Origin: Agarophyton chilense
Taxonomy: Eukaryota > Rhodophyta > Florideophyceae > Gracilariales > Gracilariaceae
Direction: 5' to 3'
DNA length: 64,000 nt
Assembly: GCA_030374765.1 (NCBI GenBank)
Contig: JARGXX010000092.1
Location: 1,116,001 to 1,180,000, forward strand
A program made the position numbers and the translations under genes. Positions 6,187-39,569 of this stretch are shown here, in pieces (the stretch's first letter is position 1; every line of letters begins with the position of its first letter). The notes beneath the pieces are model-generated. The model did no database searches, was not told where the DNA came from, and saw only the letters and a list, made by a program, of their open reading frames with translations.

Positions 6187-6194
6187 CACTGACT

Positions 6195-17599: not shown

Positions 17600-17743
17600 G
17601 TTTGAGTTGGGCACAATCAGTCACGATTAATTGGACAGAGGACTCAAAAATTGAGGTTGATCTCAGTTGCCCTCTTTGAGGAAGTTTCTTGGCCCCACTA
17701 GCCGATCGGGTTTGGATACTCAAGTGTAACGGATTCTGATCTC

Positions 17744-19804
17744 ATGTCGTCCAAAGACCGTCCGAAGACGCGGAGTCAAACCGGTGCACCGGAACCATCG
17801 CAACCATCCGGTATTCTGGTCCGTTCAAGGTCTCATACCGGTGGATGGACTAGCGTACCAGGTGGAAGGACCTCGAGACCTCCTGGTTCTGATTCGACAT
17901 CCCCAGCAAATGGAGCAGGACCGGCGTCTGCCGCCGCCCAGATGCGCTCCTCTGCTAGGGATGTCACGCTCCATCCCAGCTTTGCAGCTGTGGAAAAGCA
18001 ACTCCGCTCTATGCGGGAAGCTGAAATCATCCCTGCAGAGGAGTTCGATTCCCTTCGCAAGAAGCTAAATGACACTGCTACGCAGGATTTTTCTGAGGGC
18101 CTCTGTGTCCTCCGTGCAGATGTGAACTCGATTCTAGAGTCTCTTGGTGGACCGTCGGCCTTTGTCGAGGGCGTCGCGGACAAGTTCTCGGGCGTCCGAA
18201 GCCATCCCGAGACGTTGGAACAAACCCTCATGTCGGGAGATGATCTGGCCAAGCCGGTTGCAGTATCCCACAAGGGAAGAAAGGAAGAGAACCGCCAGGC
18301 TCGAAAGAAGCGAAGTAACACGGATCCCGAACCGTCAGACTCCTCATCCTCGGAGTCCGACTGTTCCAATTCAGCGGTGGAAGTAGCTCGCCGTGGGCGT
18401 TGCTCACGCTCTAAGCGGTCAACAGCCACCCATGGTGTGATCCGCGCCCGCACGAAAGGAAGAAAGCACACAGGTTTGAAGGAGCTGAAACCGACCAATT
18501 CGCTCTTTAAGAAGCTCTTATCATACCGGTACTACCGTTTGGAGGACTCCTCTTTGGATCGTACACCCCGTGGTACAGGAAGAGTGAAGGACTGCATTAA
18601 GCGAATGCAGCTCTCACTTCGCAACCAGTTGTTTTCTGGAGAAGACCCAATATTGGTGTTGGATTTCTTGGCACGCTTTGTCGCGGAAGCTGACATCCTT
18701 GGAATGAACGAGGGACAGGCCTACATTGCCTTACCGTACTTCTTACGTGGGCTTGCAGAAGACCAGTATCCCTCTGTCAGAGGTTCATCACGCACCTCCG
18801 AAAGAGAGGTCAGATGCTAGCCTGTAGCAGTTCAGTACCTCCTGAGGTCGTATGCTACTAACTCCGCCATTCAGCAGGCTATACGCGCCCTGCGGGACAC
18901 TCGCCAGTGGCCAAGCGAGTCGGAAACCGATTATTCGTCGCGTCTTAAGAAGGCCTTCCACCGCTGTCGCAATGTTTACCCCGCTGAAGAGCGTTGTACC
19001 ATGTTTGTCGATTGTTGGGACCCGGCGATCCAGACTCTTGTTGTTCGACGTCGAGAAGATAGACCTAATGCCCCGTATTTGGAACTAGTGCAGTTCGCTC
19101 GTGCAGAAGGTGAAGCCCTGCGCGCACGCACTCCTGGCTCCAAGGTTAGGTCCGAAAAAGCGTTGATGTTACAACCGGGTACCCCGTCAGCTTCAATGAT
19201 CGACGAACAGGCCTCTCGAAGGGATTATGATAACGTTCAGCTAGCCCATAGCGACGTTCATTCCATCCCAACAACGGAGTTATTCTCAACCTTGGACGAG
19301 ACACAATACGTGATTGAGGATGACACGCTACTCTATGCGGATAATGGTCGCGTTCGTGCGCCACGCGTCCCACACGAGAGTGGTAATGTCCGCTTTTCGC
19401 GTCCTGGTTGGAGAGATACCCGCCCCGCGGTGAAGTTCGCCGAGCCTCGCCATCCAACAGCGGCTTTTGGTCTGATTTGTCATCTCTGGTACAAACCAGG
19501 CCATACTTCTCCACAATGTGTGTTGTCTCTCCGAGAATGGGCACCAGTCGTAGTCAATTACGATGCCCTATCCCCGGAGGAAAAAGCAGCTGTTCCGATT
19601 GCATCGTATATCCGTGCTCGAACGGATGTTCCACGTCACGTGTCACTTCCCCGAGCTCGGGTGGTACCTGCACCGGAATCCCGTGTCACCGACGTGGTCG
19701 GTCACCCCACCGCTTCTGCGGTACCTTCTGGACCTGATGCCCAGGAGTTGCCCGCTCAACGCCCTGAGCAGCCGCCTCCGGCAGATCAGGCCCAGAAAAA
19801 CTAA
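17744..19804 (+). pseudogene. Gag of element A
   Basis: The frame starts at ATG 17744 (SSKDRPKTRSQTG), passes an Arg/Ser/acidic linker and enters the Gag core (YYRLEDSSLDRTPRGTGRVK, PILVLDFLARFV, GMNEGQAYIALPYFLRG). A TAG at 18818-18820 replaces a Trp kept in element B (CWPEAVQYL). The core resumes in the same frame and reaches a zinc-knuckle region at about 19470-19515 reading CHLWYKPGHTSPQC; the second Cys of CX2C is Trp, while element B keeps CYLCYLRGHKAPDC. Gag ends at TAA 19802-19804, directly after the candidate frameshift heptamer. It is inactive by stop and knuckle mutation. Confidence 0.88.
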
Positions 19805-19828: not shown

Positions 19829-22800
19829 GGGCGCCCTCAGAGTCGAGGTCGACGGCGCCCGAGGCGTCCAAGCCTCGCTCCCCGGTCAGAATCCTTTCAA
19901 GGAAAGAGGCCGTCAATGACGTGAACTCGGAACACTTTAGTGTTCTACGTCGTCCGGGGAAACGTGTTTCCCATGACCGGTTCCCGGATAGAGTTCTGGT
20001 GATGGCCAAGAGAAAGTACAAGGTCTATGCTGACCTCGGCCTTTCACCCCAGTTTATGGTGCCACACCTTACCGTCTTCAACATCGGTGCCGGTCCGAAC
20101 TTTGTCGTGGAGGAAGTGTTACCGCCTGCTTTGCAGTCTTGAATCCGCCGCAACCACGTCCCGGAGGTCGCTGACGCGAACAACAAACCGTTGGATACGG
20201 TGGGGTTCATATAAATGGTAGTCCGCGTTGGCGCTCGCGTGGTGAAACTCGACTTCGTCGTTTGTCGGAAATAAGCCGCCCCAGTCATCTTGGGTTGCGA
20301 CTTTTGCGACCGCTTCGTCGAAGCGATCTTCCCCCGCCAACGGCATGTCGAGATGGAGGATGGATCGTCCACATCGATCGTTCGTCGTCCGCTTAGGCGT
20401 CACACGAAGAAGCATGTCCCGCTACCGGCAGTACAGGAACCTGGACCGGATAACCGTGAATCTAATAAGCTCCGCTTCGCAGCGTCGTTGTGCGTCCCGC
20501 CTGAGTCCCAAATGATGGTGAAAGTAACCTCCCATCAACATGGACTCCGTGTCTTGCAACCATTGTCGTCACTGTATGACGGGCACAGCCTCGCAATTGC
20601 GAATGGAATCGTCCATTTGAAGCCAAACCAACCGTTTCACGTGCTGATCGCCAATCTAGGGACTGTACCCCAGTATCCGATGAAGAACCAAGTGATAGGG
20701 TCCGTCATGCCGCACGCCATCGCTATGGTGCCAACAAAGCTGACCGCAGCTGACTTTCTCGGACTCGTTCACTCTAAGGAGGGAGACAGCCCGAAACCCG
20801 TTTCATTGCCAGTACCCGGGGTTCAACCTCTAACATCAGGGACGCAGCCCGTTTCAACGAGTGGTGACCGCCCCGATCCAGTCCAAGAGCTCGAGGATCT
20901 GAATCTCAGCCACGTCCCGGAGTCACACCGCCATCGATTGCGAGAACTTTTAAGGGACTTCACCACTATGTGGGACGGCTCCCTTGGTGAGATTGCCACT
21001 ACGGAACACCGGATTGATTTTCTACCGGACACCCGCCCCATCCCTCAGCACCCATACCGTGCCGGACCCGCCACACGCGCGGAGGAAAACTCACAAGTGG
21101 ATAAAATGCTTCGAGCAGGAGTCATTGAACCAGCTCAGTCACCGTGGGCTTCTCCATTAGTACTGGCTCGAAAGCAGGATGGTTCCTGGAGGTTTTGCGT
21201 CGACTACCGTCTGTTGAATGCCGTTACCGTCAAGGGCGTGTATCCAATCCCAAGAATAGACGAGCAAATTGACTCGCTGGGCACCGCCACCGTCTTTAAA
21301 ACCCTGGACGCCAATTGGGGATACTGGCAAGTTCCCGTAAGGAAGCGAGACCAGGATAAAAACCGCTTTCGCGTGTCATTCCGGTCTCTACCGTTTCTAA
21401 CGGATGCCTTTTGGTCTTACCAACGCCCCCGCCACTTTCCACCGAGCCATTGACATCCTATTGGACCGCTTCAAATGGCGTATCTGCCTGGTCTACCTTG
21501 ATGACATAATCGTCTTCTCAGATAATCTGGACACACATCTCACTCGTGTGAGGTATATCATGACCACGCTTCGAGATGCAGGTGTCAATCTTAAGTTGAA
21601 GAAATGTTACTTCTTCACGGACACTGTGAAGTATCTCGGCCATGTTATCCGTCCAGGACGTGTTACAATCGAGGAGACTCGTGTTAATTCACTCAAGGAG
21701 GCTAAAGAACTGCGGACGCAAACCGAGCTTCGTTCCTTTCTGGGACTCGCAAACGTCTACCGACGATTCATCCCGCACTTTGCGGACAAGGCTGCACCAT
21801 TAAACGCGCTTTTGCGGAAAGACCAACCACCAAAACTGGACCCCTCAACCCCCTTTCAAACGGAATCTTTCAACTCTCTTAAGGATTCTGTCGTCTCTGC
21901 CCCGATCCTCTCGTTGCCCAAGCCTGGAAGGCCCTTTCACCGTAGATACGGACGCCAGCGACTACCAAGTAGCTTTTGCACTGTTTCAAACTGCACCCAA
22001 TTGGGAAAGACGCCCCGTAGGGTACTGGTCCCGATCGCTAAACGTCCACGAGAAAAAATACTCCGTCTCGGAGAAGGAATGCCTTGCAGTAGTGTGGGCA
22101 TTATAAACGTTGCGCCCCTATCTCATGTGTAATCATTTCACCGTTTTTATGGACCGCGCATCACTTCGATGGCTACTCTCCATCTCGGAGCCTTCAGGCC
22201 GCTTTATGCGTTGGCGTTTCCGTCTAGCGGAATTTGACTTTGATGTGCAGTACCGAAAAGGATCGTGCAACACCCAAGCCGATGCTCTCTCCCCCCTGGT
22301 CACTACTGGCGAAGCACTACCCGTCAAACAAGATGAAATACCCTGCTTTGCAGTGATTGGCGACGACGCTACCATCGAGGACGAGGAACAAGACACGGAC
22401 TCTTCAGATTCCAGTTCCGAATTGGACGACTTCCTTCTCTCGGAAGATTCCGAGAAACCCTTACCAGGGAACTTCGTGCCTGTTAGTCTAGAGGAGATGA
22501 TACAGGAGCAATTCACTGACCCGTTCTGCGCGAAGGTCCGCGCTCAACTCAATGGAGGAGGTACTCTCCACTTTCAGGTGAATGACGCCGGATACCTTGT
22601 ACGGACCGACGGATTGCACCCACAAATCGTGGTACCACATAAACTCCAGTCGAGAGTATTGCAGATGTCGCACTACTCCAAACTGAGTGGCCACGTCGGG
22701 GGACGAAAACTTTACTTCACCTTACGCCGTAACTTCTACTGGCCTGCCATGGCAGTGGACTGCTACGCAACGGTGCGGTTTTGTACCGATTGCGCTCGGA

Positions 22801-24815
22801 ACCGTGTAAAACTCCACCGTCATACGACGAAGTTGAAGCTGTTTCCAGCTCGTGCTCCATTGGATTTTGTGGCCATCGATATACTCGGTCCCTTCCTTAC
22901 TACTAAGCGGAATTACAAGTTCTTACTCGTAATTACGGATCGCTTCTCAAAGCTGGTCAGGACCGTACCGTTAGGGAAGATCTCTGCTATGAGCGTGGCA
23001 CAAGCCTTCGCCCTACACTTGGTTTTCGTCTAGGGTCCACCGGCCAACCTCCTCTCCGGTAACGGGAGACAGTTTGCCTCTCGTTTCTTCGAGGATGTGT
23101 GTCGCATCTTGGACATTAGGAATCTGTTCACGAACATTTACCACCCCCAAACTAGTGGGCAGGCCGAACGGTTCAACCGGACATTACTTGCGACACGCCG
23201 TTCATACGTTGCAGATCACCCCAAAGATTGGGACTTGTTCAATGATGCGCTCACCTTTGCGTACAATACGCAGGTGCACAGGACAACTGGATTAACGACC
23301 TTCGAGCTGGTACTGTCCCGTACTCCACCGTTCGTAGCGCTGGAACCACAGCCCACGCTGGATACCTTTCCGTCACCAACTGCTTACCGCGAAGCGTGAA
23401 AAACTTGGCTCACGAAGCTCGTTCCCGCCGCACGGCGTTCAATGGGCCAAGCCCAGGCCGCTTACAAGCGTGCCTTTGATACCAAAGCCCCTCGCTCGCC
23501 GCCACGTCTCGCCCCCGACGGTTATGTATTCATCCGCAAGAAGTATTGGAACCCAGAGAAGGAGAAACGCCACAAGCTGTCACCCGTTGCCGACGGCCCC
23601 TTTCGGGTTATTTCGGTGGCTTCCAACACTGTCGTTGTTGACCTCGCTGGTAACCACGAACGCATCTCCCGCGATCGCGTGGTATCGGCTCCTCCGCCGT
23701 TAACATCCCAACCTACTGGTGTGACTGCTCCCGTTGAAACGGATTCATCGACCCCCTCACCCCGGTTCCATCCGCGTCCCTACGCGTTACCACACCCATC
23801 TCGGAATTTGTCTTACCTTCCACTACCCGCGGCGCCCAACCCGCAAGGAATCGTGTCGCGCATTCGTCGCTCCTCCCAAGTCCACCCGACGGACACCAAC
23901 CCCGTTGCATCGTCTAAGGAGGGGGAGGCGCTCGACAGCCGTTGTAATCCGGTCGATGCCTTCGCTGGAAACGCCGCACCGTCGCGTGTTATTCTTCGCC
24001 CATCAGGGGTGCCTGATACCGACGTCCTGCACGACTCTACGAAGTCGCTATTCAAGCCTCAGACAGCAGCTGGGGATAACGCCACCAACACTCGCCGAGG
24101 TGTCACCACACGTGCAACACGGAATGCGAATGAGCTCGACGCACTGCAGCCTGATACAGTACGAGTGGACGACGCACCGCCAAGTACTTCGCACGGGGAG
24201 GCGGATACATCCACGGCGCCGACGCCGGACAGCCAGCCATTGGAACGCTCACGTTACTACACGGAACCTCGCCGTGGGACAGAGATGTGCGACAATGCGC
24301 CACCGCCCCAGCGAATCTCACCGCCGAAGCGAGCTTCACCACGCCGATTAGCGGAACGACCACCCGGGTTACCCGCTGGTGTGGGCCCTCCAACCGGAGT
24401 GGGAAGCGCCGAAACAAGTCCGGCACTTGGAGAAAATGAACCGCCGAAGTCGGGTCGACATTCTACTCAGCTGAGGACTGCCTTGCGCGCTACATGGTCC
24501 GAACGGAGCGAAGCCGCCAAACGCGTGATCACTTCGGTACCCCCTGGCTCAAGACGGGTACCACCCGGAAATAGCGACACCGTCATACGGGATGGCCGGG
24601 AAGTGTACCGACAAGAGTTCGTGGTCGGACGCATTCTGGAGCACTCCTACCACCCAAAGGAGTATCTCCAATACTTGGTCCGTTGGTACGGGTACGGCCC
24701 CGAATGGGATTCAGAAGAACCGATAGAGCACCTCCCTCGGTCAAAGGTGGTACAGTATCATCGTCGTACTGTCACGGCTTTGCCGGATACCATAGACCGA
24801 GCCCAAGTGGGATAA
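19801..24815 (+). pseudogene. Pol of element A: protease, RT, RNase H, integrase, chromodomain
   Basis: Pol is in the -1 frame relative to gag. The protease active site, DTGA in element B, reads NIGA here (about 20083), so the catalytic Asp is gone. In-frame stops lie at 20140, 20212 and 20272. RT motifs are VIEPAQSPWASPLV, YPIPRIDEQIDSL, MPFGLTNAPATFH and VYLDDIIVFS, with frame changes near 21400 and 21950. Integrase has its CTDC zinc pair and DFVAIDILGPF, but a TAG at about 23031 and SGNG where the catalytic DNG should be. A TGA at 23398 replaces a Trp. The C-terminus is intact, with chromodomain residues FVVGRILEHSY, YLVRWYGYGPEWDSEEP at about 24621-24730. It is an inactive Pol with a well-preserved chromodomain. 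Confidence 0.92.
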
Positions 24816-25027: not shown

Positions 25028-26691
25028 TTAGTTATAAGAACCCGGATTACCGTGCGGGCCAGCCGAATCGCTAGCGGAGCTACTCCCGCCGGCCAGGTGT
25101 GCCACGAGGGCGTCTCTCATTGTACCGATGTCGCCGCTCGCCGCTTGCGCGTTCAGTCCGACACCCTGAAGGAACTGGGAGATCATGGCCACCTCTGGGC
25201 GCATGAGAACCTCGATAACTTCCGGTTCGTTCGGCAACGCCGCCGCCACTAGATCGACCACCTCACCTGCGTGAGTCACTCCGTGCGCCGGCTTCGCCGT
25301 AGTATCGGCCCCATCGGGGTCTCCCACGTCCTCCATGACCTCGTCGCCACGGTATTCGCCCTCCTCCTCCGGGAGATCATCACCGCCATAGGCGTAGTAG
25401 AAGTCATCCGAGTTGACAAACCCCACGGAGTGCCCGTATGGTATGCCTCGAGGAGCCATCCGGAGTGCCGACACCTCCACTCGGAGTTTTCTTGCTGCTC
25501 CCACGGGTTAAAGCAGATGAAATCTCCCGCCAACGGCGTGCGACGCCCCGGAGACCGATAAGCCCCACCGCCTTCTTGACCACGGCCGCTCTGCCGGACA
25601 GGCACGACAGCCCAGTCGACACGCCCAATTATGTCGATGAGCTTCTGAGCTTCATCAGCGTTATTGACACCTCCAAGAGGGAGTTGAAGGTCCAGCTGCC
25701 GGATGTAACCACGCAAACGAGGAGGAAGATACCACAGTCGATACTGGTCGTAGGCTTCCCACGAGATGTATGCCGCGGCGAGGACTGTCCATTCGGTTAG
25801 TACCACGGACCATAAGCCGGAGTGCGGATCCACGATGAGGTACGAGCCCTGATAGGAGACGACTGGAGGCAACTCCACGTAACATCCCTCGCACACCTCG
25901 ACGGAGGACCACCACCCAGGCAGGGAAACGTATGACCCGAACTGATAGATGGGACTTATTCGGTTTATCTCCGTGTCCTGATATGGGACAAGGAACACAA
26001 AGCGGGATCTGCCCCGACGCTCCTCGCGGATGAAGTTCTGTAACCACTGATATCGGGACTCACGACGAAGGTGACGGAACTCGGCACGAATGATCGGACG
26101 GACCCAGCAGATCGCTTCTTGACACGCTCGCGGTTGAACGCGCCATGCGTAAGTTTCCAACGCCGCAAGGCGGTCACAATAGCCGATCTCAGCCTGAGTC
26201 CGGTACATCCGTAGGTCGAAGCCGAATTTGCCGGGGATGGGGTATTTAAAGTTTGCCCGGTTGATCCGTGAGTAGCCGATGCGGACGAAGGTACAATGCG
26301 CCTCTTCCGCCGACTCGCGCCTTCGCCGCAGAATCGCGCGAACGGGAACCGCCACACGGCGTCGCCAGTCCCACGAAGTGGTGATCAAAGCCGGCAGCTT
26401 GCCCGGGAGACGCGCATTGCCATCAGCATACGCGGCCACGAGTTCTTCGTCGAAGACTGCTGTCGGATGGAACCACGGAGCTCTCCCAAGAATCGCCGCA
26501 TGTTGACGCGGGTTTAACCCGACGTGTTCGTCGTAACTGGGCCAGGTGTCCTCCGCAGGAGTGATGTGGCTTGAAGTTTCAACGGGACCCCGGGATTTGC
26601 TCGGCGCGGTTGAGGAGGCCCTCCCCTGTGGAACGGGAGCCGAATGGAAACCGGAGAAGAAACCTCGGCTGGGATTCTTACCACCGTTCAT
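25028..26691 (-). pseudogene. Antisense accessory gene of element A (homolog of the gene at 29451-31451)
   Basis: ATG at 26691 opens a 471-residue minus-strand frame. It aligns along most of its length with the element B protein: RAPWFHPTAVFDEEL, SWDWRRRVAV, FGFDLRMYRTQAEIGY, PIIRAEFRHLRRE, RRGRSRFVFLVPY, LPGWWSSVEVCEGCYVELPP, DPHSGLWSVVLTEW. Near 25505 the match moves to another frame (GFVNSDDFYYAYGGDDLP beside GFIYTDDY in B) and continues to 25028, so one frameshift separates the C-terminus. It lies between pol and the 3' LTR and faces pol. I see no catalytic motif, signal peptide or membrane segment. The function is unknown and I do not recognise the family. Confidence 0.8.
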
Positions 26692-26916
26692 CGGGAGTGC
26701 TGGTCGCCGAGGTATCGGGATATGGTCGCTGGAAGTTGGCGTACGATGCGGAAGAGCGCTCGAAGTTCGAGGAGTGGTTACCGCGTTGTTGCGTTTGTCG
26801 TTCGGTTATGCAGCTCTGTCTTCGACAGTCGAGTGGTCGCTGGACGCGTTACGCGGCTCACTCTTATGCCCGTTGGACTGTTGCCTCCCCGCCATATCGA
26901 CGGCGTGTTCGTCACC

Positions 26917-26930
26917 TAAGGAAAGGGATA
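26917..26930 (+). other. Polypurine tract of element A
   Basis: The bases just before the 3' LTR read AAGGAAAGGGATA, a purine run in the expected place for plus-strand priming. Confidence 0.7.
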
Positions 26931-27818
26931 TGACGGACAATGCCCTCCAAGGAGGTTTCTTCGCAGGAATTAGAAGTTTCATTCGCTTGAGTAATAGCTT
27001 GGGCTATGACAAGCTATACCGCTATTGCGTGCTGACGGCCGGTTAGGATCGGAAGTGCACATTGGTGGAACACGTGGACTGCACGGATGCCGACGCTCGA
27101 GTGCGAGGCGTGCCACACGTGGCCCGGATTGTGCCAAATGGTTAGTATTATTTAGTAGTTTATAGTATTGATTTAGCTACGCTATCGCTATTTAGTGTCT
27201 ATTTTTCGGGCGCCTGCCCACTATCAGGGGCCGCGCGCCACACTACTTAAGAGGTGGAGCACTGCTCCCAAGTAGACACCCTCTTGGGGGATCCGAAGGA
27301 AGGGAGTCTTGGCTCTGAACTGCTCGCCTTCAGCGCGTCTTCACCGCATACTGCGTGAGCGCCCGTCTCACGTTAATTCATCCACCCCTCTGTCGACCAG
27401 AGTGCTACCACCACTGTGGGTTCATATTTCATCGCCGACACTTGTCGTAGTCTCGCCCCTGTATAGGGTTTCGCCCCCGTTTCCTCTTGTTCTCCTTTTT
27501 GGCTCTTGTCAGTGGCGGCCTCACTCACCCCTCTCGCCCCCCTCATACGAGTGTATCATCGCTCCTTTTTCGACAATGGCCGTGATACCACTCCGCCTAG
27601 GATTGGTCACACCCCGGACTGTGCCGTGCTCACCTAAACACTCTAGGTATATCCCGTCGGATTGGCCTCGGTCTTACACCCGACTCCGTCGTGCCTTTCC
27701 AGAGTGGCTCTGTTTCTGTGCTCCACTGGGACGCGTGTCCTCCGCCTGAGGCGTGTCTCTCAAAAGAGGAAGATCCTGAACATGTTCGTGGTTTCTCCGC
27801 TCCAATCGTTGTCCTACA
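26931..27818 (+). repeat. 3' LTR of element A
   Basis: It is 888 bp, begins TGACGGACAATGCC, ends CCTACA, and matches 16691-17578 with dozens of substitutions. With the inverted copy starting at 27899 it forms an inverted repeat with an 80-bp spacer (27819-27898). Confidence 0.92.
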
Positions 27819-27898
27819 GCGTGTCGTACAATCAGCTCTGGGGTATGCTACTGTCTTGTCTCGGAAGCGTGGTGACTCTTAACCGTAGGGAGCGTGGT

Positions 27899-28452
27899 TG
27901 TAAGACAACGCTTGGAGCGGAGACACCACGAAGATGTTAGGGATCTTCTTCTCTTGAGAGACACGCCTCAGGCGGAGGAGGCGCGTCCCAGCGGAGCACA
28001 GAAACAGAGCCACTCTGGAAAGGCACGACGGAGTCGGGTGTAAGACCGAGGCCAATCCGGCGGGATATACATAGAGTGTTTAGGTGAGCACCCCACAGTC
28101 TGGAATGTGACGAGTTTTAGGGGGAGCGGTACCATGGCGATTGTCGGAAAAGGAGCGAAGACACACTCGTATGAGGTGGACGAGCGAGGTGAGTGAGGCG
28201 GCCACTCACGAGAGCCCAGAAAAAAAGAACAACAGGAAACTGGGGCGAAACCATATACAGGGGCGAGACTACGACAAGTGTTGGCGATTAATATGAACCC
28301 ACAGTGGTGGTAGCACTCTGGTCGACAGAGGGGTGGATGAACTAACGTGCAACGGGCGCTCACGCAGTATGCGGTGACGACGCGCCGAAGGCGAAAAGTT
28401 CAGAGCCAAGACTCTTTCCTTGGTATCTCCCAAAAGGGTGTTTTCTGGGGAG
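27899..28452 (-). repeat. Inverted A-type solo LTR, left part (split by element B)
   Basis: On the minus strand this is the last 554 bases of an A LTR, ending CTTACA at 27899. The rest of the same LTR is at 39236-39569 (334 bp); 554 + 334 = 888, the full LTR length. No primer site lies to the left and no purine tract to the right, so it looks like a solo LTR. Confidence 0.92.
28448..28452 (+). repeat. Target-site duplication of element B, left copy
   Basis: GGGAG here is repeated at 39231-39235, directly outside both LTRs of element B. The uninterrupted A LTR has only one copy at this point. Confidence 0.92.
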
Positions 28453-29369
28453 TGTGGAGCAAAACCCGGCGACGGGAAGTGCTCTCAAGATGTTCGAAGC
28501 CTTGCTCCCTGGGGGAGGCAGACTCAGAGACAGAGCCCTCCGTTCCACCCGTAGTGTGGGGTGTAACTCCCACGGGGGATTCCGGCAGTACCGACGGAGG
28601 TGAGAGGTAGAAACAGTTGGGTCGGGAATGGGTATGGGTATCCGAAAGAATGGGGGAAAATCCGGCGAAGAGGAAAAACGGGGCGAGGGTCGGGCACTAA
28701 CAGGCACCGGACCCGAGAACCAGAAAAGGGGCGAAACAACAAAAGAAACCCAATACAGGGGCGAAAACCTGTCCTCGAAAGGAAACACAAAAAGCACGCA
28801 ACAAGTAAGCAGAACCCCCACGGGGTATCGTGCACGCAGGTCGTCTGAGCGGTCCCAAGGGGGTGGTTGCACGGAACCCAAACGTGGGCACTCTCCAAGT
28901 GGAGTCGTGTCCCTACGCAGGCGTTGCTAACCAGAGCCCGTTCCGGGTTGTAAACCCGAAACGATGGCGACGAAGAACCTCTAAAGGTATCGAAGACCAA
29001 CCTTGGTTCCCATTTACTCTGAGCTTCGGACTGTCAGATCTCGTCTCCCTAAGTAGGGCCCACTAACTAAACTCTACAGTAGTGCACACCTGCTCAGGGC
29101 CATACACGTGGAGATCCCAATGTCAGGGCCCAAAAATCCAACGTTCTAACAAATATCCGAAAAATCGATGCCAAAACTAAGCCACGTGTATCACGGGGCC
29201 AATCCAACCATGGGCCATCCGAATTTTCACTTCATAGGCGAATTCTAACCAGAAAACAGTGCCACCTCAGCAAACCTTAGAGGAGATCATAGTCATAACC
29301 CTCGGAGGGTTCAATCCTCATTCTATGAGTTGCATCTTCAAGTATCCCCTAACTGGGCGTTGCTCTACA
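28453..29369 (-). repeat. 3' LTR of element B
   Basis: It is 917 bp, TG...CA, nearly identical to 38314-39230. A 158-codon frame and its opposite-strand partners inside it recur in the other LTR only because the sequence is duplicated; they are not treated as genes. Confidence 0.95.
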
Positions 29370-29383
29370 TCTCCCCGTCCTTC
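29370..29383 (-). other. Polypurine tract of element B
   Basis: The minus strand reads GAAGGACGGGGAGA directly before the LTR start at 29369. Confidence 0.75.
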
Positions 29384-29429
29384 AGACGAGGAAGAACATT
29401 CCGAGCCGCGGGTATCTCGCTTTCCGGTC

Positions 29430-29440
29430 GCTTTATATAC
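29430..29440 (+). promoter_or_regulatory. Possible TATA box for the antisense gene of element B
   Basis: CTTTATATACT lies between the LTR edge and the first ATG (29451). If it places the start of transcription about 25-30 bases downstream, the first usable codon would be ATG 29580 (MNPYVTN) instead of 29451. No equivalent box is evident in element A. Confidence 0.35.
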
Positions 29441-29450
29441 TGCTCTTCCA

Positions 29451-31451
29451 ATGGGGTCCTTCGCCACTTCTGAGGATCGCCACAAAACCGGCACATCGGT
29501 ACAACTTTCTCCTACTCCTCCGACTTTCGGCGATAAGCAACTTCTCGCAACAGCAGTCTCAACCAACCCTCTCAAGGGAATGAACCCATACGTCACCAAC
29601 CCACTCTCGGGGCCGTCGGCCTCCGCGCCGGCGGACAACGAAACTCCCCAGCAGGGTGGATATTTCTCCGATTTGGATGCGGCTCCGTCAGGTACCGAAC
29701 CTTCCGCCTCGGCGAGCAACCGACATCCTCAGGAGGATTTGGAAATTAACGCGGTGTCGTGGAATTCCGCTCATGCGATGCCCTTGGTAGCAAACTCCAG
29801 AGGTTGGATCTCAAACGAATCCTTTCGAAGGTGGAGTCCCCTTATTGATCCGGTGATATATTCCCGCGCTCCGTGGTTCCATCAGACAGCGGTTCGCGAC
29901 GATGAGCTCATCGACTCCTACATGGAGGACGGCTTATTGCCGGGTGGCCTACCTGTCGAGGTTGTACGTTCTCGCGATTGGAGGGCGCGGGTAGCCATAG
30001 AGCCTCAGTATCTATACCGCGGTCGCGGGGAGTCCCTGGACAAGGCGCGCGCAGCGATGGCGGCTCTGGCCTACCAGCGATTGGAGAGGTTACGCTTTGA
30101 CCATCTGGTTCCCCCGGAGTACGGGTTCGATGTCGCCTATTACTGCACGTACGGTGAGGTCTCCTACGGGGATAACCTGGCACCCTTTCCAGAAGCCGAG
30201 TTCCGCGGACCGGGTTTTCCTCTCCGAGAAGATATGCTCCAATGGAGTCGTCCCATCCTTCGGGCTGAATTCAGGTACCTTCAACGGCAGTTTACCCAGT
30301 ATGGGTTCGATCGACGCATGCGCTTCGAGCGCCGCTCGCGCTCCCGTTTCGGGTTCCTTGTCCCATATCCTCACGTGGAACTGGAGCGTATCCGTGACAC
30401 GGCGAAGGTTGGGCGATTCGTGCCCCTTCCAGCCTGGTGGAGTAAGGTCGAGGTCCCCCGAGGGTGCTTTGCTGAACTGCCCCCGTGCATCTACTATATC
30501 GGGTCTCGTTTGATGCACGACCCGAACTCGGGATACTGGGCCCTCGTTGCAGCCGAGTGGGCAGCCCACGTAGCGGCGCACCTCCTCTGGGATGCTCATG
30601 ACCATTTCCGTGTCTGGTATATTCTTTCGATGCTACGGACCTTCATGCGTCAGATCGACCTTGTCCCAGCGTTGGGTTCGGTCAGCAACGTGCAGGACCT
30701 GTATCCAATCTTGGACGTGATCGACAACACCCAATGGGATCGAGTTCCAGTGGAAAATCAGCCCGCAGGGGAAGGATCCGCGCGAGACAAGTCTCCTGGC
30801 CGGTACGATCCGGGCTCCGCTAACTGGGTCTATTACAATCCCTTCGAAGGGGTTCGCATCAGCGCGGCGCAAGCACGGGCGCTGATTGACTCGCCTCGAC
30901 CGATGCCGGTGAGACACCCGACGGGGTTCATTTATACCGACGATTACGAGCACGAGCCTCCAGTGGACCTGGACGATCCAGCGTTGGATAACGACATGCC
31001 AGTTCCTAGTGAAGTACTCCCTGGGGAGCCATCTGCACCCTTCCAACCAGTGGGAACGACCTCAGCTGCGGCGGCGAATACATCCGGTGGCGGTCCATCT
31101 GCTCCTCCCGGGTGGGGTGTGAACACCCTTGCGCAGGCGCCGGTTGCCACTCCGCAAGCGGATAGTGTTCGACAAGGCCTCGTGAACGCGGGCATTCCGA
31201 TTCCCCCGGGTATGACGGATGTGAGGTTGCTCTCGTGCAACACGCCGTGCGACGGAGGCGGTTTGCGCGACCGTTGGTCTTCAGAGCCTTTTGATTGGCT
31301 CGGTGAGGCGGTCGGCGCGACGGTTGGTCGTCAGAGCCTTTTGATTGGCTTGGTGCCATTCGACGTGTGCCACATAAATGCGCGGGCGCCGGTTGCCACT
31401 CCGCAAGCGGATGTGAGGTGGCGCTTTCGACACGCGCTAGCACTCTCCTGA
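29451..31451 (+). CDS. Antisense accessory protein of element B, unknown function
   Basis: A 666-residue plus-strand frame opens 82 bp inside the 3' LTR and runs towards the end of pol (31520). The frame is also open back into the LTR, so ATG 29451 is a choice; ATG 29580 is the alternative. The first ~130 residues are Ser/Pro/Ala-rich and low in order. Residues ~140-440 form a Trp/Tyr/Arg-rich domain shared with element A (RAPWFHQTAV, SRDWRARVAI, PILRAEFRYLQRQ, RSRSRFGFLVPY, LPAWWSKVEV..GC, ELPP, DPNSGYWALVAAEW). The C-terminal ~180 residues are acidic/Pro-rich and end in duplicated DNA. No membrane segment, zinc site or nuclease motif is visible. Plant Tat-lineage gypsy elements (Grande, Retand, Ogre type) are known to carry antisense ORFs, but I see no basis for homology. 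The protein could bind RNA, DNA or a host factor; this is untested. Confidence 0.8.
   Translation: MGSFATSEDRHKTGTSVQLSPTPPTFGDKQLLATAVSTNPLKGMNPYVTNPLSGPSASAPADNETPQQGGYFSDLDAAPSGTEPSASASNRHPQEDLEINAVSWNSAHAMPLVANSRGWISNESFRRWSPLIDPVIYSRAPWFHQTAVRDDELIDSYMEDGLLPGGLPVEVVRSRDWRARVAIEPQYLYRGRGESLDKARAAMAALAYQRLERLRFDHLVPPEYGFDVAYYCTYGEVSYGDNLAPFPEAEFRGPGFPLREDMLQWSRPILRAEFRYLQRQFTQYGFDRRMRFERRSRSRFGFLVPYPHVELERIRDTAKVGRFVPLPAWWSKVEVPRGCFAELPPCIYYIGSRLMHDPNSGYWALVAAEWAAHVAAHLLWDAHDHFRVWYILSMLRTFMRQIDLVPALGSVSNVQDLYPILDVIDNTQWDRVPVENQPAGEGSARDKSPGRYDPGSANWVYYNPFEGVRISAAQARALIDSPRPMPVRHPTGFIYTDDYEHEPPVDLDDPALDNDMPVPSEVLPGEPSAPFQPVGTTSAAAANTSGGGPSAPPGWGVNTLAQAPVATPQADSVRQGLVNAGIPIPPGMTDVRLLSCNTPCDGGGLRDRWSSEPFDWLGEAVGATVGRQSLLIGLVPFDVCHINARAPVATPQADVRWRFRHALALS
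31136..31412 (+). repeat. Short direct duplications at the end of the antisense gene
   Basis: A 28-bp segment (GGCGCCGGTTGCCACTCCGC and the next 8 bases) occurs at 31136-31163 and again at 31385-31412. Between them a ~33-bp segment, CAGAGCCTTTTGATTGGCT and its upstream bases, occurs at about 31269-31301 and 31319-31351. The rearranged stretch sits where element A has its pol C-terminus and chromodomain. Confidence 0.8.
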
Positions 31452-31519: not shown

Positions 31520-34500
31520 CTATTCCCATTCCATAACGGAGAGCCAAATTTGGTCAACCTCGTCGTCGAGATCTTCCCCGTGCGGGTCCGCTGACACAGC
31601 TCGTTCCCGAGAAAGCGGAGTTTGAGTGTGCGACACCTCAGTGTCTCGTCCGCGGCGGCGGGTGATCGTCGGCTCTGTAGGCGTTCTGGGTGCGGAGTTC
31701 TCCACACGACTCTCCCTCGGCGGGATTTCGTCATCTTTTCTGACGTCGTGCTCGGCTGGGTCGGCGGTGATGTCGCTACCCATATGCTGGGGTTGTGACT
31801 TCTCTGTCGCCGGCTCGGTCGGGCTCGCCGTCTCACTGTGAGAACCAGATTCCCTGTTAGGGCGACTGGCTGACGCCGAAACATCGTCCTGCGAAGGAAC
31901 TAAGTCCTCCTCCCCGTCCTTAGGCGGAGAGCCAGGAGGTTTGATTACCTCCGGTGGGGGAGTAACTCTGTAAGAGTTCGTTGACTGGGCCCTTGAGGGA
32001 GCGGGCCCAGGTTCGGGAGTATCCGAAGTTTCCGGTAGGTCGGTTAAACCACGTTCCCGGTGCGGATGTATAACGGGGCGGGTGTTCGAATCTCGGCTTG
32101 ACGGGTTAACTTCCGTTGAATCATCCCCTGGGGAGGGCGTTGGTGCCGACACCACTTCCACATTTGGGTTGGGCGCTCGTGTGATGCGGTCCCTGGAGAT
32201 CCGTTCGTAGCGGTTAGCGATATCCAATACCACCGTGTCCGGGTCTACAGAAACCACACGATAGGGTCCGTCCACAATTGGCGAAAGCTTGTGCCTACGT
32301 TCCTTTTCAGGATTGTAATATTCCTTTCGAAGGAAGACGAAGTCGTCGGGCTCCACCTGAGGTAGAGGTTCGCGAACCCGATAGTCAAAGTCCTTCTTGT
32401 AGGCGCGTTGAGCTTTGTCCATTGCTTTCCGGGCTATCGGCACCATCTTCGTAAGCCACTCCTTCCAGGCTTCTCGGTACAATCCTGGTGACGGGTACGT
32501 CGACAGCGTCGGTTGAGCCTCGATGGCGACCGGCGGCGGTGTCCTCGAAAGTAGCAGTTCGAATGGGGAAAACGATGTAACCCGATGTACCTGGGTGTTG
32601 TATGCATACGTGATAGCGTCTGTTTACAAGTCCCAATTTTTGGGGTGATCCGCAACATACGATCTCAAAGCGTTGAGTATCGTGCGGTTAAACCTCTCCA
32701 CCTGGCCATTCCCCTGAGGGTGATACGTAGTAACAAATAAATTCCTTACATCAAGGATTCGACATACATCCTGAAAGAACTTTGATGCGAATTGCCCTCC
32801 GTTGTCGGATAACAACTGCACCGGCGGTCCATATACGAACACCCAATGGGTCACGAACGCTTGTGCGACGGTAGCGGCGGTGATCCGCTTCAACGGCACA
32901 GTTCTCGTTAGCTTAGAGAATCTGTCAGAAATGACAAGCAGATACCGATGACCTCGGGGCGTCCTGATAAACTCCCCTAGGATGTCTATGGCCACGAATT
33001 CGAGTGGAGCCCGTGCCAGGAACAGCGTCAACTTCTTAGAGTGCTTCCGAAGTTTGACGTCATTCTTGGCGCAATTGGCGCAGGCCCGTCTGACGGCGTA
33101 ACAATCGAATGCCATTGCCGGCCAGTAAAAGTCCCTTCTCAACGTGAGGTACAGTTTTCTTCCCCCGGGGTGGGCGCCAACCTTCACATAGTGAGTGAGG
33201 TGTAATTCCCTCTGTTCTAGGATGTGCGGCACCACTATCCTCGGGCGAGGTCCAACGGTCCTGATTAGGTAACCCTGATCGTCGTCCTCGAAAGGTAACT
33301 GAAATCCTCCGTTGAGGCGAGCCCGAATCCGTGTACAGAATGGGTCGAGCTGTTGCTCGCGTATGATCTCCTCTGGAGAGATAGGTATAAAAGAGCCGGT
33401 CGGCGAATCCAGACTCTCGTTGACGAGTATATCGTCACAAACATCATCTGTCAGCGGTTGAGCTCCTCCCTCGAGGTCCGATACCATAAAACATGGGATG
33501 TCATCGTCCTCGTAGGGTTCCGTTTCCGCTGTGGTTCCCAAGCGGGATAGTGCATCAGCCTGAGTGTTCAGCTTTCCTTTCTTGTACAGGATCTCAAAGT
33601 CGAATTCCGACAGTCGGAGACGCCAGCGCATAAGGCGGCCCGAGGGTTCGGAGATCTCCAGGAGCCAACGCAAACATGCGTGGTCTGTATGGACTTTGAA
33701 ACGAGTACCCATCAGATAGGGGCGAAGTGTAGCTAAGGCCCACACAACGGCTAAACATTCTTTCTCGGAGACCGAGTAGTTCCTTTCATGGACATTCAGG
33801 GAACGTGACCAGTACCAAATAGGGTGACGTTCACCATCCTCAGAGGATTGGAACAGTGCACACCCTACTTGGTTTGCACTAGCATCGGTGTCCACTTCGT
33901 AAGGGAGCCCAGGATTGGGTAGAGCCAAGATTGGCGGTGATGTTACGGCATTCACCAGTGCCGTGAAGGCAGACGCTTCCGCGTCGCCAAAAGGTTCCAG
34001 TTCAACTGGTTGTCCCTTCGTCACGAGCCTGTTGAGGGGGGCGGCAATATCCGCAAAGTTCGGGACGAATCGGCGATACACGTTACACAGACCTAAGAAG
34101 GATCGCAACTCCGTTTGAGTTTTCGGGTGTTTTGCTTCCTTCAAGGATTTCACTCGTACTTCATCGATTGAAAGCTGTCCGGGACGGGTGATATGACCCA
34201 GATACTTAACCGAATCGGTGAAAAACTCGCACTTCTTGAGTTTCAAGGTGATTCCCGCGTCGCGGAGTATCTTCATTACGTCCCTGACGTGTTCGAGGTG
34301 GTCATCCAGGTTGTTGGAGAAGACAATAGTGTCGTCTAAATACACTAGACACGTCCTCCACTTGAAGGGAGCCAACAGAATGTCTATCGCCGGTTGAAAC
34401 GTTGCCGGGGCGTTTGTCAACCCAAAAGGCATCCTCCGGAATCGGAAAAGTCCTTGATGACACACGAAAGCCGTTTTGTCTCGATCTTCCTCCCTAATAG

Positions 34501-36058
34501 GGACTTGCCAGTAGCCCGAATTGACGTCGAGGGTAGAGAAAACAGTAGCGCTCCCAAGGGAGTCGATGTATTCGTCCATCCGAGGGATCGGGTACACATC
34601 CTTAATGATTACCTCGTTCAGGCGTCTGTAATCGATGCAGAAACGCCACGATCCATCCGGTTTCGGAACTAACACCACTGGTGAGGCCCAAGCGGACTGC
34701 GCAGGTTCAATTACGCCCGCTTTAAGCATCTTCTCCACCTGAGATTTCTCCTCTTCCCGAGCTTTTGGTCCAGCCCTGTAAGGATGTTGGGCAATAGGCC
34801 GAGTGTTCGGTAACAAGTCGATGCGGTGTTCTGTAATCCCAATAGTTCCAAGGGAACCATCCCACATGGGGGTAAATTCACGAAGCATGTGCCTCAGCTT
34901 CTCCCGATGAGATGCGGGTACATGGTTGAGATCCCATTTCTCCAATTCCTGAACAGGATCCGTCTGGTCTGCTCCTGTGATAGGGGCCGTAACCTCCTGA
35001 GGTTTAAAGTGTTCAGCGTGTCGAGCTGCAGTCGTATGCTCACCGTCTTCCGCGATTTCGGCAGTGTCCTCCCCCTCCTTAGGGTCCGCCACACCAAGGA
35101 CCTCTGCGATAGAGATCTTTGTAGGTACGACTGCATGCGGGTGTGGAAGAACAGAACCCAGGATCTGGTGTTTGACCAAATGCTGCGTTGTCTTTCCAAA
35201 GTTGGCTACCAAAACCTTGAAAGGTTTATCCGGTTCCACGGAGACAACCCCATTCGCAAAGGCGAGTTGACGCCGCGTATACAGAGACTGGTTCGGTTGT
35301 ACCACATGCACACCAATTCTCTTGGTAACAACTGTGACCCAAACCTGGGTTTCTGGCGGGATAGCCACTGACTTCGGAACCTTTACCCGTGTAGACACCT
35401 GGTCCTTCTTCACAGATTCCTGCGCGACAGGGAGAGGAACGCGTGTTCGCGCTGCTCCCTGTAAGGGTTTACGATCGATTGGGCTCGTACACCCGTCTTC
35501 GAGTTCCACAGTTCTATTCCGAGGACAGATGGCTTCCACGAAGCGGTCGCAAAAGTCACAACCCAGTATGACTGGTGCTGCAAGTGACTTGCATACAATA
35601 AACTCTAGCTGAACAAGATAGGAGCCTAACCTCACCATGAGGGAAATTGTACCCAGTGTCCGTAGCGGGTTGTTGTTCGCATCGGCGATATCCAAACGTG
35701 GACCGGTACGAACTTGAACCCGGAGCAGCGGGGGTAACAATTCAACATGAATTAAGTTAGGAGCGGCTCCTGTATCCAGGACAGATATTTGACGAACCAT
35801 AAACTGGTTGGACAGGCCGAAGTCGGCGAATACTTTATAATTCCGCTTGGCCATTACCATAACTCGATCCGGAATACGGAGATTACGGGACCGTATCCAC
35901 GGGCGACGGAGGACACTAAAGTATCCCGAGTTAACATCGGTGTCAGCCGTTCTCCTTGAAAGGATAGTCACAGCTGGGGAGCGAAGCTGGAGCGCCTCGG
36001 GCGTCTTCAACTCCGGCTTAGAAGACGCCCCTCCCGCAGGGGAGACTCCCAAGTTTAG
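31520..36058 (-). pseudogene. Pol of element B: protease, RT, RNase H, integrase; one stop
   Basis: The frame is open from the shift site (36058) to 32624. Domains in order: protease (LDTGAAPNLIHVE, then VILGCDFCDRF), RT (VIEPAQSAWASPVVLVPKP, YPIPRMDEYIDSL, MPFGLTNAPATFQ, VYLDDTIVFSNN), RNase H (VDTDASANQVG, SEKECLAVVWAL, VHTDHACLRWLL) and integrase (H..H, CANC, FVAIDILGEF, LLSDNGGQFASKFF, NGQVERFNRT), with all catalytic residues present. A TAA at 32624-32626 interrupts the integrase tail; the same frame continues to 31520 through FVFLRKEYYNPEKERRHKLS. The C-terminus is a Pro/Ser-rich linker ending without a chromodomain. Apart from the one stop this Pol looks functional. Confidence 0.93.
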
Positions 36059-36064
36059 TTTTTC
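36031..36064 (-). promoter_or_regulatory. Candidate -1 ribosomal frameshift signal, element B
   Basis: On the minus strand the gag frame ends TCG AAA AAC TAA; the heptamer GAAAAAC is at 36064-36058 and the stop at 36057-36055. Pol continues in the -1 frame (CTA AAC TTG). Thirteen bases on is a stem CTCCC/GGGAG with loop CTGC (36044-36031). This equals element A in heptamer, stop and spacing, with compensated stem bases. Confidence 0.68.
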
Positions 36065-38086
36065 GAAGCGGACCCCACCGAATTCGGTGCAGCTGCCTCG
36101 AAGGGGACCAGTTGTTCCCCGTTCGCGGGTACAAGTTCTGTATCCCTGTCAGCAAGGTGAGCTCGGAGTATCCTTTGTTCCTCATAGGACCTACTCGGGA
36201 CTCGAGCTTTCTCCTCAGGGGTCAGAGCCTCGTACTGAGCGATAATTAGTGAACCCTCCCGCAGGGGAAATGTGCAGTCTGGTGCTTTGTGACCACGGAG
36301 GTAACACAAATAGCAAATCAGCTCTGCCGGGTTCGGTTGTGGACGTGATTCCACGTGACGTGGTGCTGTATCCCTCCATCTGGGGCGAGAGAACCGAGCA
36401 GCGGTATTCGCAAAAGGTAGCAATGCGGCTGGCACCCTCCGTCCTTGGGTATAGAGCGCAGGGTCTTCATCCGTAGTCGGAGCGGATATCGACGGAAACT
36501 CAGACGTACCAATAGATTCGGGGTTACTTCCCATGAAGTGAATGTTATCATTGACCCCCACAGGGGCAGGGCCTCCTGCGAGTGACAAAGACGAGTTACC
36601 TCCATCGGCGAGGAGTGCACGTGTCGGCCGACTCTTTCGGTTCTGCCGGGCACGGAGAGTATCCACCTCAGCCTGGGCGTACTGAACCAGTTCCAATTAG
36701 GTCAGCTTGCGCTTCTCTTCCCGATGTCGGGCAACCAATGCCCTTATCGAGGGGTCCAAACCATCCACAAACATGGAGCATCTCTCGTAGGCGGGGAATA
36801 CATTCCCACATCGGTGAAACGCTTTATTCAAGCGAGTTGAATACATCGTTTCGGTTTCCATCGGCTTCTGCCGCGTATCCCTTAATGCAAGGATTGCTTC
36901 CTGAATCGCATTTCCAGTAGCGTATGACCTAAAGAGGTACTGCACCGCTTCGGGCCAGCACGTGACTTCCCCTTCCGAGGCTTGGGATGATCCACGGACA
37001 GAGTTGAACTGGTCTTCAGCCATCCCCTTTAAGAAATAGGGTAATGCAAGATACGCTTGCGCTTCACTCATACCGAGGATGTCAGCCTTTTGAACGAACC
37101 TCGCAAGGAAATCGAGCACCAGAATTGGGTCTGTTCCTGTGAACTCCCTCTTCTGTAGGGTGATGCTCAGCCTTTTGATGTAGTCCTTGACCTTACCCGT
37201 TCCGCGGGATGTTCGATCTCCCGAAGGGTTATCCAACCGGTAATAGCGGTACGATAGCAGCTTCCGATAGAGAGGATTCGTCGGCTTCAGCTCCCTTAAT
37301 CCAAGGTGTTTCCTATCCCTTCTTCCGGGTACGGATTGCCCCTTGAGAGGTGTAAGTTGCCTTCGACCGAGTCGCCCGGGATGACCGGCGTCCATCTTCA
37401 CTATCCGAAGATTCGGAGGACGAACTCGATGACGAGCGATTGGGATCGGAATCCGATAAATCCTCTTGGAGGTGAACCCTCTTCTTGGACTTGCGGCGGT
37501 CCCGTTTAGCGGAGCGGTGTTCTTCGTCTTCCGAAACGTCGGGTTTATCCTTCGAGGCTTCTGTGTCTCCGTCCATACGAATAATGGCCTCGAGGGTGTC
37601 CAGCCGAGCTCAAAAGCGTTCCGCTTGCACGCGGTGTTCCTCCACGAGGCTCCGGTACTCCTGGACAAAGACCCCTGGGGTTCCAAAGCTTTCTAAAAGG
37701 GAGTTCACATCCGTCCTCAGGGTACGAAGGTCATCGGCGACTCCCCGCTCCTGGGCGTCCTCCACTTTGCAGCGGAGGGTAGTAATCTCCTGAAGGAGCT
37801 CGACGTGAGCCGCGTTGGCGATATCGATTCGAGTCTCCAGGCGCTGTAATTCAGGGTCGGCCCGACTTCGGGGTGCTGCTCAGGGGGTCTCCACCACTGG
37901 AGCTGGGCCTACAGCCACGACCTCTCGAGGACCTGAAACCACTGAGGGTGCTCTCCGAGTGTCCGGATCGATACGGGAATCGTTCCGATTTTCGGGAATT
38001 GAGCTCCTCGACCTAGGCGGGGCCGGGGGCACTGAATTCGCATGACGGTTCGATCCAGTCCTGGAACCACGTGTAGGGGGCGACAT
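36055..38086 (-). pseudogene. Gag of element B with three stops and a frameshift
   Basis: The frame starts at ATG 38086 (SPPTRGSRTGSNRH). TGA codons at 37882-37880 and 37612-37610 both look like CGA changed by one C-to-T step. A frame change near 37320 moves the reading to the frame that holds the Gag core (YYRLDNPSGDRTSRGTGKVK, PILVLDFLARFVQKADILG, CWPEAVQYLFRSYATG). A TAA at 36699-36697 replaces a Tyr present in element A. The last part (36696-36055) keeps a full zinc knuckle CYLCYLRGHKAPDC. Between the N-terminus and core is a charged coiled-coil-like stretch and a Ser/Glu-rich linker. The gene cannot make full-length Gag. Confidence 0.9.
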
Positions 38087-38293: not shown

Positions 38294-38311
38294 TTCTAAG
38301 TCGGGAGACCA
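38294..38311 (-). other. Primer-binding site of element B
   Basis: Two bases after the 5' LTR the minus strand reads TGGTCTCCCGACTTAGAA, matching 13 to 14 of 18 positions of the element A site. Both imply the same kind of primer tRNA. Confidence 0.7.
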
Positions 38312-38313
38312 CT

Positions 38314-39230
38314 TGTGGAGCAAAACCCGGCGACGGGAAGTGCTCTCAAGGTGTTCGAAGCCTTGCTCCCTGAGGGAGGCAGACTCAGAGACAGAGCCCT
38401 CCGTTCCACCCGTAGTGTGGGGTGTAACTCCCACGGGGGATTCCGGCAGTACCGACGGAGGTGAGGGGTAGAAACAGTTGGGTCGGGAATGGGTATGGGT
38501 ATCCCAAAGAATGGGGGAAAATCCGGCGAAGAGGAAAAACGGGGCGAGGGTCGGGCACTAACAGGCACCGGACCCGAGAACCAGAAAAGGGGCGAAACAA
38601 CAAAAGAAACCCAATACAGGGGCGAAAACCTGTCCTCGAAAGGAAACACAAAAAGCACGCAACAAGTAAGCAGAACCCCCACGGGGTATCGTGCACGCAG
38701 GTCGTCTGAGCGGTCCCAAGGGGGTGGTTGCACGGAACCCAAACGTGGGCACTCTCCAAGTGGAGTCGTGTCCCTACGCAGGCGTTGCTAACCAGAGCCC
38801 GTTCCGGGTTGTAAACCCGAAACGATGGCGACGAAGAACCTCTAAAGGTATCGAAGACCAACCTTGGTTCCCATTTACTCTGAGCTTCGGACTGTCAGAT
38901 CTCGTCTCCCTAAGTAGGGCCCACTAACTAAACTCTACAGTAGTGCACACCTGCTCAGGGCCATACACGTGGAGATCCCACTGTCAGGGCCCAAAAATCC
39001 AACGTTCTAACAAATATCCGAAAAATCGATGCCAAAATTAAGCCACGTGTATCACGGGGCCAATCCAACCATGGGCCATCCGAATTTTCACTTCATAGGC
39101 GAATTCTAACCAGAAAACAGTGCCACCTCAGCAAACCTTAGAGAGGATCATAGTCATAAACCTCGGAGGGTTCAATCCTCATTCTATGAGTTGCATCTTC
39201 AAGTATCCCCTAACTGGGCGTTGCTCTACA
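38314..39230 (-). repeat. 5' LTR of element B
   Basis: It is 917 bp and the near-identical partner of 28453-29369. It should carry the sense promoter reading leftwards. It is followed on the right by the second GGGAG. Confidence 0.95.
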
Positions 39231-39569
39231 GGGAGCAGTGCTCAACCTCCTAAGTAGTGTGGCGCGCGGCCCCTGACAGTGGGCGCGCGCCCGAAAAATA
39301 GACACTAAATAGCGATAGCGTAGCTAAATAAATACTAAAAATTACTAAATAGTACTAACCATTAGGTATAATCCGGGCCACGTGTGGCACGCCTTGCACT
39401 CGAGCGTCGGCATCCGTGCAGTCCACGTGTTCCACCAGTGTGCACTTCCGGTCCTAACCGGCCGTCAGCACGCAATAGCGGTATAGTTTGTCATAGCCCA
39501 AGCTATTCCTCAAGCGAACGAAACTTCTAAGTCCTGCGAAGAAACCACCTTGAAAGGCATTTTCCTTCA
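39231..39569 (-). repeat. Inverted A-type solo LTR, right part, with second GGGAG
   Basis: This continues the A LTR interrupted at 28452. It reads, on the minus strand, from TGAAGGAAAATGCC at 39569. Positions 39231-39235 are the duplicated GGGAG. Confidence 0.92.

Follow-up and report, generated by a model that had tools for sequence, protein, structure and literature searches.

In the accessible parts of the literature, descriptions of antisense accessory genes in long terminal repeat (LTR) elements come mainly from plant Tat elements and from some retroviruses. According to the available excerpts of PMC11963269 and PMC7264820, the Retand lineage (Tat) of plant Ty3/gypsy elements (Grande gene23, RIRE2, Retand ORF4) carries an antisense TRP28 (PF04195) gene, and Grande gene23 has its own promoter and a nuclear protein. 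The antisense promoter of human T-lymphotropic virus (HTLV) is located inside the 3' LTR (excerpt of PMC7264820), and the HBZ protein is nuclear (excerpt of PMC11963269). Here we analysed a window of 64,000 nucleotides (contig C92, 1116001-1180000, of an 80-Mb assembly with 135 contigs) in which two Ty3/gypsy elements, A and B, each harbour a gene between pol and the 3' LTR on the strand opposite to pol. Placement and orientation are the same in a third family (C), the protein is present in a further one (E) and in other genomes, and it is under selection at the protein level between families. We propose, with moderate confidence, that this is an element-encoded and element-inherited accessory gene of red-algal Ty3/gypsy chromodomain elements, whose product would be a trans-acting regulator.

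The assembly gave 13 phycobilisome-linker matches, several of them on large nuclear-type contigs that also carry these elements (C88, C10, C68, C16, C1 and C80). The host is therefore a red alga, in agreement with a preliminary description of this DNA that had pointed to an alga. On contig C39, one 892-residue frame with three phycobilisome-linker matches was present in two places separated by 185,684 bp, perhaps because a plastid genome was assembled in duplicate.

The antisense genes and their copies

The A gene frame is open from 25276 to 26805 on the minus strand (509 amino acids) and the B gene frame from 29238 to 31451 on the plus strand (737 amino acids). The two proteins are identical at 157 of 405 positions (39%, E 1e-72, BLASTP), and the conserved core of the B gene lies at about 29868-30843. 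This confirmed the preliminary description, which had proposed a homologous antisense gene facing pol before the 3' LTR in both gypsy elements, with an identity near 40% over about 300 residues and below that of Pol (54-65% amino acid identity between A and B). The elements are also separate insertions with different LTRs, as claimed there: the A and B LTRs gave no mutual match in the window self-comparison, and B is bounded by its own 5-bp target duplication (CTCCC in B sense). The two elements described for 25028-31451 stood, with one correction: B is nested within a separate inverted A-type LTR (27898-28452 and 39231-39567), beside element A, and this LTR is the insertion target of B.

The window genes as first described held only in part. 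Compared to other A copies, the A gene is broken by a frameshift near 25.5 kb and a stop in its N-terminal part. The B gene frame has no stops (11-21 stops in each of the remaining five frames) and is typical of its family up to about 31224. Beyond this point, approximately 1.26 kb of another B copy (locus L003) is swapped for approximately 0.23 kb, a net loss of about 1.0 kb (sizes computed from match positions against L003) that removed the chromodomain together with the ~27 final codons of the antisense gene. L003 retains the chromodomain (Pfam Chromo, E 5.9e-8), and in this copy pol and the antisense gene converge, about 0.4 kb apart. The earlier assignment to chromodomain elements holds for A, L003 and C, but not for the window copy of B. 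The proposed start of the B gene at GTG 29259 was abandoned: residue 42 of that longer frame is a stop in every gapless B copy but that of the window (24 of 25). The natural start is likely ATG 29451 or ATG 29580, and the start of several relatives aligns with the second of these.

Protein searches of the genome scored the best candidates only and their match lists overlap, and the counts are lower bounds: at least 61 matches for the B protein, 92 for the A protein, and 83, 71 and 75 for the relatives P0002, P0003 and P0001 respectively. Among the scored B-like matches, 43 of 75 are stop-free across the stretch matched by P0001. DNA tags of the B family (up to 3 mismatches, whole genome) gave 246 matches for the antisense gene, 300 for the pol-side spacer (pol tail) and 228 for the integrase, and reversed-pattern controls of all three tags gave none. 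Tag pairing used the first 100 places listed per tag, all exact. For 64 of the 100 listed gene tags, a spacer tag is listed at a distance of 1894-2220 bp in the correct direction, and for none is one listed on the wrong side; opposite-strand gene/spacer tag pairs within 6 kb numbered two among the matches listed. On contigs C1 to C77, 61 of the 92 listed exact integrase tags have a listed exact antisense gene tag downstream (median 3394 bp), and a further six were paired through a B-protein match, giving 67/92 with the gene downstream in antisense. Among the matches listed, no same-strand gene tag was present within 6 kb of these 92 integrase tags. Eight more listed integrase tags (C79 and C80) were excluded because the gene-tag list stops at C77.

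We fetched 60 A and B loci (30 each), picked by gene similarity. An LTR match was present on the expected flank in all 60 (limited to 56 bp in L039, shifted in L059 and partial in several), and a pol-tail match in 59 (all except L040). The preliminary description had named capture of a host gene by these copies only as a finding that would speak against an element gene, and such capture is known in maize Bs1 (available part of PMC7264820). We found nothing in favour of a recent capture by few copies, and rejected it as extremely unlikely, given the hundreds of copies, the several families, the saturated divergence, and the matches to LTR and pol that surround the fetched loci. A second transposable element, inserted long ago between pol and the LTR and carried along as a passenger, would account for a gene with its own strand and, by inference, its own promoter. 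However, inverted repeats of at least 14 bp were not found flanking either window gene, the protein has no transposase domain match and has been under selection over a long divergence, and no free-standing copies with their own ends were recognised among the 60 loci; we consider a passenger very improbable.

Some copies recur in regular arrays. Three antisense genes of equal score on contig C68 (3138517, 3147714 and 3156911) are spaced by exactly 9,197 bp, probably copies of one element arranged in tandem. On C28 (1046908-1080655), pairs of A-type genes recur at a 21,842-bp spacing with identical or almost identical scores, which probably reflects a segmental duplication that contains two elements.

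Element C (contig C111, loci L061 and L062) has LTRs that are approximately 86% identical, gag-like frames and a pol (from frame reading) with 49-53% identity to that of B, and a chromodomain (Pfam Chromo, E 4.1e-7). Its antisense frame of 611 amino acids begins beside the 3' LTR. Family E is represented by a 550-residue gene of the same protein family (L063), fetched as the gene alone. E-like match ranges (ends 599-613) occur in 21 rows of the P0003 search, 19 of them stop-free; only L063 was read. In searches of 5.8 billion proteins, each scoring the ~8,000 candidates with most shared words, the only relatives found were P0001 to P0004, with 28-52% identity to the proteins of the present genome. 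The best genome matches of P0001, P0002 and P0003 reach only 52%, 43% and 37% (P0004 was left out), and these three proteins therefore come from other genomes. Pairwise protein identity was 0.52 for A-E, 0.51 for B-P0001, 0.43 for P0003-P0004 and 0.27-0.40 for all other pairs. Across eight aligned proteins, 42 columns are invariant, including the start methionine.

Selection on the protein, its nature and its proposed role

Codon positions and pairwise rates of non-synonymous (dN) and synonymous (dS) change were analysed in 40 of 61 sequences (open frames of at least 450 amino acids). Between A and B, identity at codon positions 1, 2 and 3 was 0.49-0.50, 0.56-0.59 and 0.30-0.32 in the full gene (three pairs), and 0.55, 0.63 and 0.36 in the core (chance, 0.25-0.27), on protein-based alignments that bias the comparison toward positions 1 and 2. 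The protein match of 1e-72 is independent of this bias. The Pol pieces of A and B showed the same pattern at a higher level (0.64-0.73, 0.74-0.82 and 0.34-0.41). Positions 1 and 2 are conserved between families and position 3 is near chance, indicating selection on the protein; the constraint on the antisense frame is weaker than on Pol. Together with the two further families, C and E, this supports the earlier statement that the gene has been kept through divergence. The convergent layout would also suit an antisense RNA that matters alone, with double-stranded RNA silencing or limiting the element and the frame incidental, and such roles are discussed for plant elements in the available part of PMC7264820. 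RNA pairing, however, cannot require an amino acid sequence conserved between families with third positions near chance, and we consider this explanation improbable.

Besides the alignment bias, several results weigh against a maintained regulatory gene. The dN/dS within families falls only slightly short of 1 (uncorrected median 0.64 in 16 A copies, 117 pairs, and 0.56 in 23 B copies, 253 pairs), and for two A pairs that are very close the median reaches 1.24. In the singleton set (25 of the 30 B loci, score-picked, five with length differences dropped), 276 non-synonymous and 148 synonymous singletons were counted, a ratio of about 0.78 of expectation with the mutation spectrum allowed for; shared variants (24:15) were at about 0.67 of expectation, and stop-making singletons numbered 12 (about 17 expected). 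Twenty-five of the 92 listed integrase tags were left unpaired, which may reflect mismatches in the gene tag. The frame reaches at least 639 amino acids in only 4 of the 30 fetched A loci and at least 640 in 18 of the 30 B loci, and these figures overestimate intactness as the copy lists were sorted by score. One opposite-strand frame of the E gene has just two stops in 1650 bp. The predicted isoelectric points (4.9-6.8) are acidic to neutral, not basic. Finally, both AlphaFold models (six sequences, mostly helical) are weak, with a predicted local distance difference test (pLDDT) of 62 and a predicted template modelling score (pTM) of 0.65 for the longer one, and a pLDDT of 59 and a pTM of 0.51 for the core; the longer model, the sole one compared, had no fold match with Foldseek on PDB and BFVD or with VIA-align.

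The preliminary description had regarded a dN/dS near 1 as a sign against the gene. The within-family medians reflect a mixture of decay and constraint, whereas between families dS is saturated (infinite in three of four pairs, 3.1 in one) at a dN of 0.72-0.80. The within-family pattern fits mostly decaying copies of a constrained gene, and alone is no proof of function.

The proteins have 518-650 amino acids, 12-19 tryptophans and, by eye, low-complexity ends. As in the preliminary description, the family was not recognised; hidden Markov model and structure searches now named none either. A Pfam scan of seven proteins (E up to 10) gave no family except a zinc-ribbon stretch at chance level (0.18), and PHROGs and the PDB sequence search gave no match to the antisense protein. 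TRP28 (PF04195) was not matched in the same seven proteins at E up to 10, in a program whose filters drop most matches above ~0.1; TRP28 membership was rejected on this result and on the presence of chromodomains. Two short peptide patterns matched 42 stretches of IMG/VR, none of which was confirmed. No clear transmembrane stretch was found (the highest 19-residue hydropathy was 1.74, in the tail of A_L041, and did not exceed 1.44 elsewhere), and an envelope-like third open reading frame was rejected on this basis and on the antisense orientation.

A structural or enzymatic protein of the particle, either packaged or derived as a coat or movement protein from an unknown virus, would be compatible with a conserved domain that is rich in helices, has many aromatic residues and shows no detectable similarity to regulators. 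For the antisense genes of plants, the available part of PMC11963269 brings up recombination with an unknown virus. Against it stand the lack of matches in PHROGs, BFVD and, with the two patterns, IMG/VR, and a hydropathy profile that is not envelope-like. We regard a particle protein as unlikely.

The proposed regulator would have approximately 520-650 residues, with a helix-rich central domain, many invariant arginines and tryptophans, and low-complexity ends. The ATG is close to the LTR (39 or 243 bp in A, 81 or 210 bp in B and approximately 166 bp in C), and an antisense transcript would therefore most likely start in the U3 of the 3' LTR or in the spacer. We infer an antisense promoter in this U3, or in the spacer between the polypurine tract and the ATG, that would drive a separate mRNA toward pol. 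TATATA is present in the spacer region of 25 of the 30 B loci, copies that are related and not independent; as a promoter before the B gene it is a weak lead. Since the protein is not encoded in the coding sense of the gag-pol RNA, it could be produced while gag-pol is silent, and double-stranded RNA could form between the two convergent transcripts. Rather than being an enzyme, the product might be a trans-acting factor, probably in the nucleus, that binds nucleic acid or chromatin. The binding of nucleic acid is guesswork, given the lack of a fold or domain match and the weak AlphaFold models. By analogy, the protein could tune expression or integration of the element, as proposed for the Grande/Retand antisense proteins and HBZ. 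A role in the nucleus is likewise suggested by Grande gene23, to which the likeness in place and orientation is observed and that in function inferred.

Structure of the two elements and other features of the window

The features of elements A and B are collected in the table. The Pfam domains of B pol (RVT_1 at 5.9e-39, RT_RNaseH, Integrase_H2C2 and rve) are in gypsy order, its best PDB match is the Ty3 Gag-Pol 7q5b (E 4.6e-99), and the gag-asp_proteas match has an E of only 0.11. The gag regions of A and B share 68% DNA identity across 18440-19098. The string TGGTCTCCCGACTT, which resembles a primer binding site, is common to B and C beside the 5' LTR and has a variant in A; the primer tRNAs of A, B and C may be the same or close.

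Features of elements A and B in the window (LTR identities from the window self-comparison)
Feature	Positions	Strand	Evidence or remark
A 5' LTR	16695..17578	plus	90.4% identity to 26935-27818
A gag-like open frames	17702..19804	plus	17702-18820 and 18821-19804
A pol, broken into several frames	20275..23033	plus	Pfam RVT_1, RT_RNaseH, Integrase_H2C2
A integrase C-terminal part, spacer, chromodomain (~24618-24764)	23400..24815	plus	Pfam Chromo E 2.9e-7
A antisense gene, C-terminal part in other frame	25028..25507	minus	End MRDALVAHLAGG matches C-terminus of other A copies
A antisense gene, main frame of a broken copy (open up to 26805)	25276..26691	minus	Homology to B gene
A 3' LTR	26935..27818	plus	90.4% identity to 16695-17578
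Target-site duplication of B, copy 1	28448..28452		GGGAG on plus strand
B 3' LTR, 917 bp	28453..29369	minus	99.0% identity to 38314-39230
B polypurine tract adjoining 3' LTR	29370..29383	minus	GAAGGACGGGGAGA on sense strand, by eye
TATATA immediately upstream of B antisense gene	29434..29439		Weak promoter lead only
B antisense gene	29451..31448	plus	ATG 29451 or alternative 29580, likely; family-typical to ~31224, then different
B integrase C-terminal part and spacer	31520..32623	minus	Chromodomain deleted in window copy, present in L003
B pol (reverse transcriptase, RNase H, integrase; protease-like match weak)	32624..36148	minus	Pfam and PDB matches
B gag-like frames	36055..37692	minus	Open frames 36055-36696 and 36697-37692
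B primer-binding-site-like string	38298..38311	minus	TGGTCTCCCGACTT, by eye
B 5' LTR, 917 bp	38314..39230	minus	99.0% identity to 28453-29369
Target-site duplication of B, copy 2	39231..39235		GGGAG on plus strand

Elsewhere in the window, a Ty1/copia element (5489-11317) has reverse transcriptase and integrase frames at 6195-9593 on the minus strand and LTRs (5489-6174 and 10631-11317) that are 95% identical. At 44754-48215, a minus-strand gene with a polyA-polymerase head domain and a plus-strand gene for a class III aminotransferase have open frames that overlap at their 5' ends (46494-46769).

Comparison with described antisense genes

In a literature search over titles and abstract openings, with subscription journals mostly outside it, no antisense gene was reported in red algae or in algal chromodomain elements. 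The available part of a brown-alga transposon survey (PMC12477816) mentions chromodomain gypsy lineages, and no antisense gene is mentioned in that part. Bdelloid rotifer LTR elements resemble the present ones in having a family-specific extra gene (ORF3) beyond gag and pol, but that gene has DEDDy/GDSL-type domains, and the part of PMC5408684 available mentions no antisense gene.

In the excerpts available, Grande, RIRE2 and Retand share with the red-algal elements a gene that lies between pol and the 3' LTR in antisense, is present in most copies and is conserved across families. By contrast, the Retand lineage as described there is non-chromovirus, restricted to flowering plants and has a TRP28 domain, whereas the present elements have a chromodomain, come from a red alga and encode an apparently unrelated protein. 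Boty of Botrytis cinerea carries an antisense frame (aORF) between pol and the 3' LTR, outside plants (excerpt of PMC7264820). Boty is fungal, and the likeness is one of layout. HTLV-1 likewise has an antisense gene, that of HBZ, but HBZ and the other retroviral antisense genes belong to animal retroviruses. HBZ is a bZIP protein.

Accessory genes in antisense have precedents in plants and fungi; what is new here is the host group and, apparently, an unrelated protein family. Tentatively, a dedicated antisense gene next to the 3' LTR may have arisen in the red-algal elements separately from those of plants, fungi and retroviruses, with a new protein family and a new fold, in a slot that would be a recurrent site for a self-regulator expressed when gag-pol is off. 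If true, the presence of a conserved and apparently unrelated antisense protein across several chromodomain families of red algae would suggest that the same solution evolved repeatedly, and would imply that antisense promoters on the LTR side may influence host genes beside solo LTRs. With hundreds of copies and young insertions in an 80-Mb genome, the red alga offers a testable system.

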